From contig NZ_GG666295.1 in NCBI RefSeq assembly GCF_000159095.1, positions 60,210 to 124,209 of the forward strand: 64,000 bases of DNA. The letters run 5' to 3'. The number at the start of each line of letters is the position of its first letter. The first letter of the stretch is position 1. A program made the position numbers and the translations under genes. Source of the DNA: Anaerococcus tetradius ATCC 35098. Lineage in GTDB: Bacteria; Bacillota; Clostridia; Tissierellales; Peptoniphilaceae. The notes beneath the pieces were generated by a model. It saw nothing but the letters and a program-made list of their open reading frames with translations, ran no database searches and was not told the origin of the DNA. This document shows positions 12,322 to 18,271 of this stretch, one piece after another.

Positions 12322-13568
12322 ATATTGATGAAAAATTTATAAAGGAAAAATTATTAGAAAACTTCCTAAATTATCTTAGCATAAGTAGTCAATCTAATGA
12401 AGATAAGCTTGAAATTCCTTCAAGTCAAGGGCAAGTCCTTTTGGCTAAGAAACTTGCTAAGGAGCTTGGGGATTTGGGTCTTAAAGATATAAACATTAAT
12501 GAGTTTTCTGTTCTACAAGCAAGGCTTGAGCCTAGGGGTATTGATGGGGATAAGGCAAAAAAAATAGCTTGGGTATGTCATCTTGATACTGTCGATGTCG
12601 GTTTAAGTGATAAAGTAAATCCACGCCTTATAAGAAATTATGAGGGTGGAGATATTATTTTAAATAGCAAGGAAGATATTAGAATAAAAGCAGAAGATGA
12701 AAAAGATTTAGTTAATTATATCAATGATGATATTATCGTAACTGACGGAAATTCTGTCCTAGGTGCTGATAACAAGGCTGCAATTGCTAATGTCATGACA
12801 GCCCTATGGTATCTTAAAGAAAATCCTAGTATCAGTCATGGAGAAATTTTTATTGCCTTTGTTCCTGATGAAGAGATAGGACTTAGGGGAGTTAGAAAAA
12901 TTGACTTTGATAAATTCGATGTTGACTTTGCTTATACTATCGACTGCTGTAAATTAGGAGAGCTTGTCTATGAAACTTTTAATGCAGCAAGCGGAAGGCT
13001 CAAAATTAAAGGCGTAAGTGCCCATCCTATGGCTAGTAAGGGAAAGTTAGTAAATCCAATCATGATTGCCCATGATTTTATTTCAATGCTTGATAGGGCT
13101 AAGACGCCAGAACATACAGAAAAAAGAGAAGGCTATATTTGGATTACAGATATAAACTCTGATGTTGTTAATTGTGAAATAAAGTTGAATATAAGAAATC
13201 ACGATAAGGAAAAATTCGAAGCAAGCAAGGATTATTTAAGACATATATGTGAAATCCTTAAAACACGCTATAAAAAAGCTAAAATTGAATTAGAAATTGA
13301 AGATGTCTATAGAAATATAATAGATTCAGTAAATGATAAGAACCATGTAGCTATAGATAAGCTTAAAGAAACTTTCGAAAAATTAAAAATTAAGGCAGAA
13401 ATTATTCCTATGAGGGGAGGAACAGATGGGTCATATCTTTCAACTAGAAATATACTAACCCCTAATTACTTTACTGGAGCTCATAATTTTCATTCAAACA
13501 AAGAATTTTTGCCGATGAATTCTTTTTATAAGTCATTTCTTGTAACCCTTAATTTAATGAGAATATGA
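12318..13568 (+). CDS. pepT: Peptidase T (aminotripeptidase)
   Basis: A dizinc exopeptidase of the M20B group that removes the N-terminal residue from tripeptides. At 416 aa it has the family length. Zinc and catalytic motifs are in place: HLDTVD near residue 92, GADNKAAI, PDEEIGLRG, TIDC and a C-terminal GAHNFHSNKEF. This suits an organism living on peptides. It overlaps the HAD gene by four bases and is the last gene of the operon; the AAGGAGG at 12295-12301 is far from the ATG, so coupled translation is likely. Confidence 0.95.
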   Translation: MNIDEKFIKEKLLENFLNYLSISSQSNEDKLEIPSSQGQVLLAKKLAKELGDLGLKDININEFSVLQARLEPRGIDGDKAKKIAWVCHLDTVDVGLSDKVNPRLIRNYEGGDIILNSKEDIRIKAEDEKDLVNYINDDIIVTDGNSVLGADNKAAIANVMTALWYLKENPSISHGEIFIAFVPDEEIGLRGVRKIDFDKFDVDFAYTIDCCKLGELVYETFNAASGRLKIKGVSAHPMASKGKLVNPIMIAHDFISMLDRAKTPEHTEKREGYIWITDINSDVVNCEIKLNIRNHDKEKFEASKDYLRHICEILKTRYKKAKIELEIEDVYRNIIDSVNDKNHVAIDKLKETFEKLKIKAEIIPMRGGTDGSYLSTRNILTPNYFTGAHNFHSNKEFLPMNSFYKSFLVTLNLMRI

Positions 13569-13637
13569 AAAACATAGAAATTTATTTGCAAAAAGGGTAT
13601 ATTAAGAAAGTAACTCAAAATGTTTTTAGGAGGAAAT

Positions 13638-13715
13638 ATGGATAAAAGTGGGCCCAAACTGAGGCTTAAAATCAAAATAGCTAATTGGGGATACTTTGTC
13701 TGTAGCCTCGATTAG
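13638..13715 (+). CDS. Candidate 25-residue leader peptide ahead of mgtE
   Basis: A small reading frame beginning MDKSGPKLRLKIK and ending YFVCSLD, with stop TAG at 13713-13715. It has a textbook ribosome site AGGAGG at 13628-13633, as good as any in the window. Its stop codon lies inside the hairpin arm ATTAGC (13711-13716), which faces the mgtE ribosome site, so ribosomes here could control mgtE expression. No signal sequence or known motif is present; the peptide is basic in its first half. It may be a regulatory leader, a small membrane-associated peptide or chance. Confidence 0.45.
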   Translation: MDKSGPKLRLKIKIANWGYFVCSLD

Positions 13716-13731
13716 CAAAAGCTAATGGAGG
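13661..13731 (+). promoter_or_regulatory. Structured mgtE leader with mutually exclusive pairings
   Basis: Three complementary pairs can be seen. GAGGCT (13661-13666) pairs with AGCCTC (13704-13709). ATTAGC (13711-13716) can pair either with GCTAAT at 13680-13685, which would make an H-type pseudoknot with the first stem, or with GCTAAT at 13721-13726, a tight AAAA-loop hairpin that abuts the mgtE ribosome site GGAGG (13727-13731). The alternatives suggest a switch. The sequence lacks the conserved M-box core, so a known Mg2+ riboswitch is not supported. Confidence 0.45.
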
Positions 13732-13736
13732 TATAA

Positions 13737-15062
13737 ATGAGCGAAAAAAATTATAACGTAGAAAGACTCGCGAAGATTAAAGAGACAATCAACAAGATGG
13801 ATCCTGTTGATATTGCAGATAAACTTGAAATTCTTCCAGAAAAAGATGTGGCGATTTGGATAAAGCTACTAAATAAAGACTTATTAGCAGATACTTTTAC
13901 AGAATTAAGGCCTGAAAATAAGGCTAGAATAGTAAATATTCTTTCTGAATCTAGCATTAAGGATTTGGTAAGAGACTTAGACGAAGACGAATTAGTAGAT
14001 ACCTTACAAGAGCTACCTGCTAATATCACAAAAAAATTAATGGACTTTCACATTGATAAGGACAGAAGGAAAGTTGTAAATGAACTTTTGGGCTACCCTA
14101 AAGAATCTGTCGGTTCGATAATGACTGTAAACTTCCTATCAGTGAAAGAAAATTTAACCCCTAAACAAGCCCTTGATAAAATCATGGCATCACAGCTCGA
14201 TGCAGAAAAGCTTGAACAAATATGGATAACCAACCAATCCTTAGTCCTTTTGGGCTTTGTTTATATAGCCGATATAATAAGATACCAAGACAAAAGTCTA
14301 AATGAGCTATTGACAAGTATAAGTGCAACAGTAAGTCCCTATGAGGACCAAGAGGTCGTTGCAAAACTATCTTACAAATATGACCTAGGAGAAGTCCCAG
14401 TCGTTGATTCAGAAAATAGGCTAATAGGAATAGTACCAGCAGAAGATGTAATTGATGTAGCTCATGATGAGTTCCAAGAAGATATTTCTAACATAACAGG
14501 TATTTCAGATCAATCAGAATCATACTTAAACGAATCTAGCTTCAAAATTGCTAAGGCTAGGACAACTTGGTTGATAATATGTCTACTAACAGCAACTATG
14601 ACAGGTTTCATAATTCATAGATATGAAAATCTTTTGGCAAGTGCCGTTGTCCTAACAGCATACATACCTATGCTGATGGATTCAGGTGGTAATGCAGGAA
14701 GTCAAGCTTCTACAACAGTAATCACTTCACTTTACAGTGGAGAGATTGGCATCAAAGATTTCTTTAAAGTTATAATCAAGGAGGCAAGCATAGGAATCAT
14801 AACTGGATTAATCTTAGTTATTGTAAATTTCCTAAGGCTGATGATAATGGATAGGGCAGCCATAGCTGTAAATCTTACCGTATCTCTTACCCTTCTATTG
14901 ACAATAATATTTTCTAAAGTTATGGGAGGAATCCTACCAATTATAGCTGAAAAATGTAAAATAGACCCAACCGTAATGGCTGGACCACTTATAACAACAA
15001 TTGTAGATACTCTTGTATTGTTAATCTATTTTGAAGTAGCTTCATTGATGTTAGGCTTGTAA
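13737..15062 (+). CDS. mgtE: Magnesium transporter MgtE
   Basis: A Mg2+-gated Mg2+ channel/transporter in the cell membrane, 441 aa, close to the usual 450. The order is an N-terminal helical superfamily domain (about 1-130, rich in acidic residues such as DLDEDELVDTLQEL), two CBS domains (about 135-255), a connecting helix, and five membrane segments from about 280 onward. The pore-region signature MDSGGNAGSQASTT is present. GGAGG is five bases before the ATG. The unusual upstream leader suggests expression control in addition to the protein's own Mg2+ gating. Confidence 0.95.
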   Translation: MSEKNYNVERLAKIKETINKMDPVDIADKLEILPEKDVAIWIKLLNKDLLADTFTELRPENKARIVNILSESSIKDLVRDLDEDELVDTLQELPANITKKLMDFHIDKDRRKVVNELLGYPKESVGSIMTVNFLSVKENLTPKQALDKIMASQLDAEKLEQIWITNQSLVLLGFVYIADIIRYQDKSLNELLTSISATVSPYEDQEVVAKLSYKYDLGEVPVVDSENRLIGIVPAEDVIDVAHDEFQEDISNITGISDQSESYLNESSFKIAKARTTWLIICLLTATMTGFIIHRYENLLASAVVLTAYIPMLMDSGGNAGSQASTTVITSLYSGEIGIKDFFKVIIKEASIGIITGLILVIVNFLRLMIMDRAAIAVNLTVSLTLLLTIIFSKVMGGILPIIAEKCKIDPTVMAGPLITTIVDTLVLLIYFEVASLMLGL

Positions 15063-15227: not shown

Positions 15228-15485
15228 AACAAGAAAAAGCAATGAAGTGGAAGAGTAATTTAGACTTTTTTTTAAGAGAGGTATCGCTTGCTGTAAGATA
15301 CTAGAAAGTCGTAATGAAAATCACCATTAAGCTGACATTCGATATGTAGATTGATCCGGTAGCTCCCGTTATAGGGCTATTCATTTATTTGATATGAGAG
15401 CATCGAACGATGAAGAAGAGTGGTACCGCGAAGTTGTTTTCCTTCGTCTCTTTGGCTATTTGCTAGAGCAGGCGAAGGTTTTTTC
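15228..15485 (+). promoter_or_regulatory. T-box riboswitch, predicted isoleucine specifier
   Basis: A classic T-box leader: stem I with the AGAGAG loop and GTAAGATAC element, then the conserved AGTGGTACCGCG (15419-15430) that binds the tRNA acceptor end, followed by a terminator whose arms are CCTTCG (15441-15446) and CGAAGG (15473-15478) and a T run. By alignment with the second T-box, the specifier is ATC at 15320-15322 (flanked by GAAA and ACC), an isoleucine codon. Uncharged tRNA-Ile would stabilise the antiterminator and switch on the downstream binding-protein gene. Confidence 0.9.
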
Positions 15486-15508: not shown

Positions 15509-16678
15509 ATGTTAAAGAAAAAATTTGGATTAATGGCACTTATAGCCTTGTTTGCATTTTCATCTTGCGGAAATAAAGATAAGGCTTCTGATGGTAAAGC
15601 AAGTGAAGATAGTAAGGTTATTAAATTAGGAAATTCTGGACCTCTTACTGGACCTTTATCAGTCTATGGTAAGACTTGCCAAAATGGTATCCAACTTGCT
15701 ATAGATGAAATAAATAAAAATGGAGGAATAGACGGCAAACAAGTTGAATGGACAGGTCTTGATGATAAGGGCGAGATTACAGAAGCTGTTACAAATTATA
15801 ACAAACTAATGGAAGATAAAGTAAATGCTATTTTAGGCGGAATTCCATCTAAACCAACTCTTGCTATGGCAGAATCTGCAGCCAAAGATGAGATTGTTTA
15901 CATAACACCAACTGGAACTCAGGCTAATATTACTGAAGGAAAAGATAATGTCTTTAGAGTTTGTTTTACAGATCCTTTCCAAGGTGAAGTGCTTGCTAAT
16001 TTTGCAGCTGATAAATTAAAGGCTAAAAAGCTAGCTATTCTAAGAAATCAATCATCAGATTATTCTATGGGTGTAGCTGATGTCTTCAAAGAAACAGCTA
16101 AAAAGGCAGGCATGGAAGTTGTTGCGGATGAATCTTATGGCGACAATGACACAGACTTCAAGGCTCAACTTACAAAGATAAAATCTGAAAATGTAGATGT
16201 ATTATTAATCCCTGACTACTATGAAAAAGTAGCCCTAATATCTTCTCAAGTAAGAGATTCAGGTATCAAGGCAACCCTATTGGGAGCTGACGGTTGGGAT
16301 GGTGTTTTATCAGTAATGGATCAATCATCATTTAAGGATGTAGAAGGTTCTTATTTCTCAAACCAATTCAGTCTTGATGATCCATCAGAAAAATGTCAAA
16401 AATTCATAAAAGACTACAAGGAAAAATATAAAGAAGATCCAACTACCTTCGCAGCTGAAGGTTATGACACAGTTTATTTATATAAACAAGCTGTAGAAGA
16501 AGCAAAGACTACTAAGTGGGATGAAGTCGTAAAGGCATTAAAGAATATCAAATTTGATGGTATAACAGGTTCTTTCAAATTTGATGAAAATAATAACCCA
16601 AGAAAAACTGCTAAAATCATCAAAATAGATGGTGGAAAGTATAAATTTGATTCAGAAGTGGAAGCTAAAGAAAAATAA
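15509..16678 (+). CDS. livJ: Branched-chain amino-acid ABC transporter binding lipoprotein 1
   Basis: A periplasmic-binding-protein type I (LivJ-like) lipoprotein that captures extracellular amino acids for the LivHMGF transporter. The 389-aa product has a lipoprotein signal peptide with lipobox FSSC (Cys20), a short polar linker, then IKLGNSGPLTGPLSVYG typical of the Leu/Ile/Val-binding family and a two-lobe domain to the end. AGGAGG precedes the ATG. It lies behind the Ile-type T-box, with its own promoter; the transporter genes follow the second copy. It is clearly paralogous to the next binding protein along its length. Isoleucine preference is inferred from the leader only. Confidence 0.93.
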   Translation: MLKKKFGLMALIALFAFSSCGNKDKASDGKASEDSKVIKLGNSGPLTGPLSVYGKTCQNGIQLAIDEINKNGGIDGKQVEWTGLDDKGEITEAVTNYNKLMEDKVNAILGGIPSKPTLAMAESAAKDEIVYITPTGTQANITEGKDNVFRVCFTDPFQGEVLANFAADKLKAKKLAILRNQSSDYSMGVADVFKETAKKAGMEVVADESYGDNDTDFKAQLTKIKSENVDVLLIPDYYEKVALISSQVRDSGIKATLLGADGWDGVLSVMDQSSFKDVEGSYFSNQFSLDDPSEKCQKFIKDYKEKYKEDPTTFAAEGYDTVYLYKQAVEEAKTTKWDEVVKALKNIKFDGITGSFKFDENNNPRKTAKIIKIDGGKYKFDSEVEAKEK

Positions 16679-16815: not shown

Positions 16816-16821
16816 CATAAA

Positions 16822-17093
16822 AAGCAATGAAGTGGAGCAGTATAATAAGCTTATTTTACAGAGAGGTATCGTTAGCTGGAAGATACTAAATAATTTATTA
16901 GAAACTAGCCACCAAGCCGAATGCTGAAATAATAGTAGGCATATCCGGGAACTCCCGTTATAGAGTTATTCATTAATTTGAGCAGAGTGCATCGAACGAT
17001 GAAGAAGAGTGGTACCGCGGAGATGGTTTTAAATACATATAATAATACCCTTCGTCTCTTCTACCTATGGTAGAAAGAGACGGGGGTTTTTTT
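16822..17093 (+). promoter_or_regulatory. T-box riboswitch, predicted leucine specifier
   Basis: A second T-box with the same architecture: GAAGTGG start, AGAGAG loop, AAGATACT element, AGTGGTACCGCGG (17008-17020) and a long terminator with arms CGTCTCTT-CTACC and GGTAGAAAGAGACG ending in seven T. Aligning GAAA-NNN-12 bases with the first T-box places the specifier at CTA (16905-16907), a leucine codon. It controls binding protein 2 and probably the whole livHMGF operon. Confidence 0.9.
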
Positions 17094-17116: not shown

Positions 17117-18271
17117 ATGAAAAACAAAATCAAAAATGTAGGAATTGTTGCAATGATGGTAGCTGTATTTACAGCTTGTGGAGCTAAGGCTAATGAGGGT
17201 GGCCAAAAGGATTCAGAAATTAAGCTTGGTTCAACTTTCCCACTTACTGGTCAATATTCTAACTATGGTATCTCAACTGTTAATGGTATAAAGATGGCTA
17301 TAGATGAGATTAATGAAAATGGTGGAATAAAAGGAAAGAAGATAGTTCTAGATTCTATGGATGATAAGGGAGAGCTTACTGATTCGGTAACAAGCTATAA
17401 TAAGTTGGTTGAATCCGGTGTAAGTGCTGTTATTGGAACTAATACTTCAGCCCCATCTAATGCAATTGCAGAAGCTAGTCAAAAGGACGGTATTCCTGTT
17501 ATTACACCAACTGGTACAGAAGAAAGTATTACTGCTTCTAAAGATAATGTCTTTAGAACATGCTTTACCAATCCTTACCAAGGAAATCTATTGGCGATTT
17601 TTGCTAAGGATAAGCTAAAAGCTAAGACTGCTGCCATTATGACTAACTCATCTTCTGATTATTCTACAGGAATTGCAGATGCCTTCGAAAAAAAGGCCAA
17701 GGAACTTGGTATAGAGATAGTCGCTAAGGAGTCATATGGAGAAAACGATACTGACTTTAAAGCACAACTTACAAGTATTTCAAAAAAACAGCCAGATGTA
17801 TTATTGCTTCCAGAATATTATGAAAAATTAGCTTTGATTACACCACAGGCAAGAGATGCTGGAATTAAGGCAAGCTTTATTGGTGGCGATGGTTGGGATG
17901 GAATTATAAAAACCATGGATAAGTCAAGTATGGGAGTAATCGAAAATTCTTACTTTACCAATCACTTTTCTATAGAAGATACTAGTCCTAAGGTTAGTGA
18001 CTTTGTAAAGAAATACAAAGAAAAATACAAAGAAGATCCAACTGCTTTCTCAGCACTTGGTTTTGATACAGTTTATATGATAAAAGAAGCTTTTGAAAAA
18101 GCTAAATCTGATAGCAATGAGGATAGGATTAAGGCTATAAAAGAACTTGATTTTGATGGAATCACAGGAAAGTTTAAGTTTGATGAAAACAACAATCCTC
18201 AAAAAGCTGCTTCTATCATGAAAATAGAAAAAGGAGAATATAGATTCGATTCTATAATTAATCCAAGATAG
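17117..18271 (+). CDS. livJ: Branched-chain amino-acid ABC transporter binding lipoprotein 2
   Basis: A 384-aa LivJ-type binding lipoprotein with signal peptide and lipobox FTAC (Cys21), then IKLGSTFPLTGQYSNYG and a type I two-lobe binding domain. The C-terminus carries GITGKFKFDENNNPQK, shared with binding protein 1, which confirms an ancient duplication. GGAGG precedes the ATG. It is followed after 13 bases by livH, so this copy belongs to the transporter operon. It lies behind the leucine-type T-box, which suggests a preference for leucine, though the protein itself does not settle that. Confidence 0.93.
   Translation: MKNKIKNVGIVAMMVAVFTACGAKANEGGQKDSEIKLGSTFPLTGQYSNYGISTVNGIKMAIDEINENGGIKGKKIVLDSMDDKGELTDSVTSYNKLVESGVSAVIGTNTSAPSNAIAEASQKDGIPVITPTGTEESITASKDNVFRTCFTNPYQGNLLAIFAKDKLKAKTAAIMTNSSSDYSTGIADAFEKKAKELGIEIVAKESYGENDTDFKAQLTSISKKQPDVLLLPEYYEKLALITPQARDAGIKASFIGGDGWDGIIKTMDKSSMGVIENSYFTNHFSIEDTSPKVSDFVKKYKEKYKEDPTAFSALGFDTVYMIKEAFEKAKSDSNEDRIKAIKELDFDGITGKFKFDENNNPQKAASIMKIEKGEYRFDSIINPR

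Follow-up and report, generated by a model that had tools for sequence, protein, structure and literature searches.

The mgtE gene of Anaerococcus tetradius ATCC 35098 (13737-15062, on the + strand, like the parts of its leader described below) lies in a 64,000-nt stretch of DNA, the whole of which was analysed and is called here the window. It encodes a Mg2+ transporter with MgtE_N, CBS and MgtE domains, and the gene located 5′ of its leader encodes a peptidase-like protein according to the domain annotation. How does this leader regulate the transporter gene? Our best reading is that of a leader-peptide attenuator, which fits the leader better than a riboswitch does, and we consider it probable that the attenuator responds to Mg2+ through the faltering of ribosomes on the acidic, proline-containing N-terminus of a short upstream ORF (uORF).

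The anatomy of the leader is well supported. We observed that the uORF, whose product is MDKSGPKLRLKIKIANWGYFVCSLD, occupies 13638-13715 (25 codons, TAG stop at 13713-13715) and is led by the Shine-Dalgarno (SD) sequence AGGAGG at 13628-13633, as the first-pass annotation had described; this SD reads AGGAGG or AGGAG in the 12 orthologous leaders. The part of the uORF that is kept comprises codons 1-6, in which residue 2 is acidic and residue 6 is proline. According to the rules of our script, the 64-kb window has two intergenic, ATG-started ORFs of 6-45 codons with a strong SD, and the mgtE uORF is one of them. A single consensus match to a sigma-70-type promoter (TAGAAA, 17 nt, TATATT; 13575-13603) is a weak candidate, as 0.7 such matches are expected by chance. 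We found no intrinsic terminator in the mgtE leader of the window.

Strand 1 (13641-13657) corresponds to uORF codons 2-7, including the Pro6 codon CCC at 13653-13655, and pairs with the strand 2 region (arm 13685-13700; duplex energy −13.8 kcal/mol). This 1:2 helix was absent from the first-pass annotation. Strand 2 itself, GCTAATTGGGG (13680-13690), is the anti-sequestor arm. It is fully complementary (11 of 11 pairs; −16.8 kcal/mol) to strand 3, CCTCGATTAGC (13706-13716), which holds the uORF stop codon. Strand 4, GCTAATGGAGG (13721-13731), contains the mgtE SD (13727-13731), and the predicted 3:4 hairpin (13705-13716 with 13721-13732; −15.9 kcal/mol) masks it. Helices 2:3 and 3:4 are mutually exclusive, strand 3 being common to both. 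It had been noted earlier that ATTAGC at 13711-13716 can pair with GCTAAT at either 13680-13685 or 13721-13726, the latter giving a tight hairpin at the GGAGG of mgtE; both pairings and the hairpin at 13705-13732 were recovered, and the pairing with the upstream copy is longer than claimed.

We compared this arrangement with dinucleotide shuffles of the leader in which the SD end was fixed. None of the 2000 shuffles gave both 2:3 and 3:4 at the observed strength with a shared strand, while 2 of them reached the SD mask by itself and 7 a 2:3-type fold by itself; the combination is thus improbable as a chance product, in a test that was designed after the sequence had been inspected. In the unconstrained folds of the seven window-type leaders (group A), the 3:4 hairpin was present in 7/7 and helix 1:2 in 6/7, and the 2:3 helix keeps 9-11 of its 11 core pairs in six distinct strand sets. 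Covariation was rejected as a proof of this 2:3 helix, because the strands of the same leader are paired at 95% of positions and strands swapped between leaders at 93%, which is hardly different. Support for 2:3 in group A comes from the shuffle test and the recurring layout. When codons 1-8 were blocked, the minimum-energy fold kept 3:4 in six of the seven leaders and switched in one; therefore, switching in group A must be kinetic, that is, governed by the order of synthesis and not by equilibrium. The leader L035 has a weak 3:4 helix (−4.6) and folds without 1:2.

The five Anaerococcus leaders of group B (L038-L042) are able to build 2:3 and 3:4 from unrelated letters, and in them 3:4 covers the start codon of mgtE. 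Their unconstrained minimum-energy folds have the 2:3 hairpin in 5/5 cases, so that the predicted resting state is open, not masked; two of the five, L038 and L042, have a weak 1:2 helix. The models thus predict mutually exclusive structures that overlap the uORF, one of them blocking expression, as is characteristic of leader-peptide attenuators. The folding predictions back the switching itself in part only. At the level of the sequence, the start of the uORF is conserved, the helices compete and the SD of mgtE is masked.

We then examined the conservation of the uORF. An MgtE match was present in 30/31 Anaerococcus genomes, and 12 of them, including the one of the window, have a close orthologue (71-100% identity). 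All 12 orthologues are preceded by an SD-led uORF that starts 95-122 nt upstream of mgtE, a conserved SD-led short ORF being the hallmark of leader-peptide attenuators. An acidic residue 2, of the kind found near the N-termini of MgtQ and MgtL, is present in 12/12 (D in 10, E in 2; in the window it belongs to an N-terminus with a single acidic residue), and Pro6 is likewise present in 12/12. The peptides are MDKSGPKLRLK.., MDKSGPNLRLN (two genomes), MDKSGPDLRLN, MDLSEPCPRRKLKK, MEKGGPDSRL.., MENGGPDCRL.., MDNSSPSRTQ.., MDKASPYRR.. (three genomes) and MDKAVPDPDFK... In the family, a close mgtE (E ≤ 1e-120) was found in 37 of 130 genomes, to which a search of 249 genomes of the order made no additions. 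An M[DE] uORF precedes it in 29 of these 37 genomes (L164 is counted, L165 is not); the remaining eight are seven Aedoeadaptatus-like genomes without a uORF and the atypical L165. A scan of named genomes showed MDTSRPW.. in Peptoniphilus and MDNSPVPEP.. in Streptococcus henryi. The mgtE uORFs of Facklamia encode MDSHDSQ.., MDVGDDS.. and MDTGEDV.. (the last two found by eye), and many Clostridia have an mgtE uORF, such as MDADSSNGT.. or MDAGSSSGT...

By script, an SD-led ATG M[DE] ORF (8-45 codons, ≤420 nt from mgtE) precedes mgtE at 75 of 112 distinct loci, the SD patterns having been relaxed after the Clostridial loci were inspected; strict patterns gave 53 loci instead. The 75 include L155 (MESIRSVLYSS, weak SD), which we took as a chance hit, leaving 74 uORFs of 11-38 residues. 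The 112 loci are not independent, and the 74 uORFs have 57 distinct N-termini. With the strict SD patterns and no selection for the second residue, M[DE] starts were found in 53/58 of the strong-SD short ORFs within 420 nt before mgtE versus 1/12 elsewhere; this background consists of 12 ORFs only and the loci are related, so a Fisher test overstates the difference.

The 37 loci without an M[DE] ORF by script fall into four groups. Eighteen (L043-L060) are a second mgtE copy of the genus that is 35-39% identical; by eye, this copy lies mostly close behind another gene, often a C-terminal protease-like gene or a further mgtE. Six (L151, L156-L159 and L162) make up, together with L155, the seven Aedoeadaptatus-like genomes. 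In L155-L159 and L162, which have no uORF, a T-run preceded by a hairpin-like GGATTG..CGATCC or GGTCC was seen by eye just before mgtE. Five (L164, L165, L085, L088 and L090) fall outside the length, SD or start rules of the script or are atypical, and were judged by eye. Among them, L085, a metagenome-assembled genome labelled Treponema, has an acidic uORF, INCDEPDSL.., which apparently starts at an ATA (position 1256), as a result of either a sequencing error or a rare start. No comparable uORF was found in the last eight (L092, L099, L112, L123, L127, L132, L137 and L138).

Is the peptide or the RNA conserved in these uORFs? The codon for residue 2 in the 74 uORFs, which were preselected for M[DE], is GAT in 37, GAC in 34 and GAA (Glu) in 3; residue 2 is thus kept as an amino acid and not as bases, because GAT and GAC are used about equally. 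For comparison, Asp2 occurs in 0/41 SD-led long ORFs of the window, and Glu2 in 3. A second acidic residue within residues 2-8 or a proline within residues 4-8 was found in 45/57 distinct N-termini (the window has D2 and P6), and neither in 12/57. Leaders with unrelated 3′ sequences (group B and the terminator type of Peptoniphilus) have the SD, the beginning of the ORF and its acidic/Pro N-terminus in common. As judged from the compared sequences, conservation is confined to the N-terminal part of the uORF.

From these features we can propose how the leader would work. When the uORF is untranslated, or is translated smoothly to its end, helices 1:2 and 3:4 would form, the mgtE SD would be hidden and mgtE would be off. 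At low Mg2+, ribosomes would pause or fall apart on M-D-K-S-G-P. A faltering ribosome would keep strand 1 covered, strand 2 would pair with strand 3 as the latter emerges from RNA polymerase, and strand 4 would be left free, allowing translation of mgtE. We infer that the slowing is Mg2+-dependent through intrinsic ribosome destabilization, as for MgtL and MgtQ, and that 2:3 would win by forming first. The nature of the gene, the analogy with these peptides and the leaders in which an M-box and an MD uORF stand in tandem (see below) all point to Mg2+ as the probable signal.

MgtE and MgtB belong to different transporter families. The layout closely resembles that of mgtQ-mgtB of Salmonella as presented in PMC8092293, with an AGGAGG SD, a short ORF that is acidic at residue 2 and contains a CCC codon, alternative 1:2 + 3:4 and 2:3 structures, a 3:4 helix hiding the ribosome-binding site (RBS) of the transporter, and a Mg2+ importer downstream. 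There, according to mutational tests, a slower translation of mgtQ promotes 2:3 and thereby exposes the mgtB RBS (PMC8092293). The energies are also similar, being −16.4 (2:3) and −12.26 (3:4) for mgtQ versus −16.8 and −15.9 for the mgtE leader. The likeness is one of layout and we claim no sequence homology; mgtQ was tested by mutation, whereas the mgtE leader is known from its sequence. Moreover, mgtQ lies between operon genes while the mgtE uORF lies in a 5′ leader, and MgtQ has acidic residues 2 and 5, with CCC in stem 1, whereas the window uORF lacks the second acidic residue (PMC8092293).

The MgtL peptide of mgtA in E. coli and Salmonella is another acidic/Pro N-terminal peptide preceding a Mg2+ importer. 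According to PMC11282234, ribosomes drop off at its EPDP in low Mg2+, so that full translation means off and drop-off means on. MgtL works on Rho-dependent termination, unlike the mgtE leader, in which the SD would be masked, and unlike Peptoniphilus with its intrinsic terminator. Its EPDP is more acidic and proline-rich than the N-terminus of the window uORF, which, having one acidic residue and one proline, is a weak destabilizing sequence beside it.

Could the uORF act instead by translational coupling, with ribosomes that complete it opening the 3:4 hairpin and reinitiating at mgtE, so that uORF translation drives mgtE? The window would fit this, since its stop codon, within ATTAGC, lies inside strand 3 and 21 nt before mgtE. 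A few other leaders are comparable: the stop is 15 nt from mgtE in L104 and 1 nt in L135, and the frame of L164 extends beyond the mgtE start. However, the stop position of the window is peculiar to the A. tetradius genome; the other 11 Anaerococcus uORFs are 11-16 codons long and end 50-74 nt upstream of mgtE, and in 28 other leaders tabulated for this property the stop lies 47-149 nt upstream. Coupling also leaves the conserved acidic/Pro N-terminus unexplained, and we regard it as rather unlikely.

The conserved proline raises the question of whether the uORF senses charged tRNA-Pro, or the slow decoding of a rare CCC, in the manner of a classical amino-acid attenuator and not Mg2+. We observed that the first proline codon, at residue 5 or 6 of 29 leaders, is CCC in 22, CCT in 6, CCG in 1 and never CCA (11 of the 29 are closely related Peptoniphilus leaders, MDTS[RG]PW, all with CCC), whereas the 459 proline codons of the window ORFs include 245 CCA and 24 CCC. 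The mgtP leader of Salmonella is moreover described as tRNA-Pro-responsive in PMC8092293. On the other hand, in many mgtE uORFs of Clostridia the proline position is occupied by Ser or Gly and Asp2 is retained; L093, which is not among the 29, uses CCA at residue 5; and the conserved CCC of mgtQ worked via stem 1 and not as a proline codon (PMC8092293). The supply of proline would also be an odd reason to control a Mg2+ gene. Control by tRNA-Pro or by rare-codon decoding is therefore unlikely in our view; within a Mg2+-responsive attenuator, CCC may be conserved for its slow decoding, for its pairing in strand 1, or for both.

A ligand-binding riboswitch, sensing Mg2+ or another ligand, with a chance or accessory ORF would agree with the stable fold of the 189-nt window leader (z = −3.56), with its alternative helices and with the absence of the M-box, which was found in 0/31 Anaerococcus genomes. 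The region 13540-13800, however, has no Rfam match at E ≤ 10, which agrees with the first-pass annotation that an M-box core is missing; the M-box (RF00380) and the other Rfam families were accordingly rejected as descriptions of the window leader, their covariance models being unmatched. The start of the uORF is also constant while the leaders of group A, group B and Peptoniphilus differ in sequence and structure. The helix GAGGCT:AGCCTC of the H-type pseudoknot that had been put forward has 6/6 pairs in the window, but among the seven closest leaders L036 and L037 keep only 3/6, and we rejected the pseudoknot as a conserved core. The first-pass annotation had suggested a translation-coupled or ligand-sensing switch linked to Mg2+; a translation-dependent switch before a Mg2+ transporter is well supported, while a ligand-sensing riboswitch is not supported and appears very unlikely.

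The M-box (mgtE/ykoK riboswitch) acts on the same target gene family and presumably responds to the same signal; the mgtE riboswitch of B. subtilis is described in PMC12288461. Unlike the M-box, the mgtE leader would sense through the ribosome and not through an aptamer. In some relatives the M-box lies 5′ of the uORF: it is present in 14 of the 80 loci scanned, and an MD uORF follows it in 10 of those 14. In two loci (L121, 1088-1245; L125, 1089-1246), a Clostridiales-1 RNA (RF01699) stands between the M-box and the MD uORF, and this RNA may be part of mgtE leaders. The leader of Streptococcus henryi (L093, ~1070-1310) has an M-box, a stretch of ~110 bases that is repeated twice by eye, and the acidic/Pro uORF MDNSPVPEP.

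In Peptoniphilus, the same uORF start is followed by a terminator/antiterminator with paired changes. The segment AGTCTATGCGATAAAGG is the antiterminator arm against CTTTACCGCTTAGAC, and the alternative use of CTTTACCGCTTAGAC is a terminator, CCGC..GCGG-T(n). In 10 hand-registered leaders, changes on both sides were seen in 6/16 pairs of the antiterminator; pairing was 87% for strands of the same leader and 77% for swapped strands, and 3 of 20,000 permutations reached the observed value. L068 and L071 differ by one inserted base after codon 7 and therefore in their C-terminal frames (..KNVLVYAIKEK and ..RKCISLCDKGE), and the antiterminator bases AGTCTATGCGATAAAGG are identical despite the change of frame. 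By comparison of these sequences, codons 1-7 are kept as peptide and the downstream bases as RNA. A ribosome that drops off before it reaches codon 10 would leave the antiterminator arm available, so that mgtE would again be on.

Such frameshifts also bear on the persistence of the ORF in relatives, of which the N-terminus stood the comparison (12/12) and the C-terminal part did not. They make it highly improbable that the uORF product is a small regulatory protein acting on MgtE, in the manner described for MgtR on MgtC and MgtU on MgtB (PMC8092293): the SD and start are well conserved and encoded beside mgtE, but the products have 11-38 residues and an unconserved C-terminus that is frameshifted between close species.

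A crude terminator script was positive for 27/74 leaders, and we state no terminator rate because it misses several Peptoniphilus terminators that are visible by eye. When 26 Clostridial leaders were aligned with MAFFT, codons 2-3 came up as a candidate partner of a GCGTCC further on, and an ACTCC as a candidate anti-SD.

Returning to the Mg2+-responsive attenuator, we compared it with two further described elements. The mgtE motif SRC-65-1 has the mgtE SD within a stem, as here, and is, according to PMC11109978, a riboswitch candidate reported in Thioalkalivibrio only. The uORF2 of the mycobacterial M-box also follows an M-box and has a conserved N-terminus, with Pro7 in most peptides; unlike the mgtE uORF, it is mycobacterial and belongs to the pe20 operon, and ribosome destabilization is not proposed in the text consulted (PMC12810186). 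We found no report of leader-peptide control before mgtE in Bacillota among the matches listed for open-licence PMC full text. Mg2+-responsive leader peptides are a known kind, and their presence before mgtE in Gram-positive anaerobes appears new as far as those matches go.

A broader proposal, which we judge to be evenly poised between right and wrong, is that mgtE is controlled throughout the Bacillota by a class of leader peptides (M-D-x-[GDS]-x-[PS]) that sense Mg2+ through the destabilization of ribosomes. This class would have arisen independently of MgtL and MgtQ, would act through several kinds of expression platform (masking of the SD, masking of the start codon and an intrinsic terminator), would often stand in tandem with the M-box, and would have replaced it at mgtE in Anaerococcus and Peptoniphilus. 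Ribosome-based Mg2+ sensing is known from the enterobacterial mgtA and mgtB leaders; if it also operates before MgtE, it would be a general and repeatedly evolved solution, and it would explain how mgtE is controlled by Mg2+ in a genus that lacks the M-box. Ribosome instability could further be probed with the short natural peptides that the mgtE uORFs encode, and the tandem leaders raise the question of why one gene should have two Mg2+ sensors.

Across the window, the only Rfam matches at the gathering score are two T-boxes downstream of mgtE. These tandem T-box leaders (15233-15454 and 16818-17062) precede the ORFs 15509-16678 and 17117-18271, respectively, both of which resemble, by eye, substrate-binding proteins of ABC transporters.
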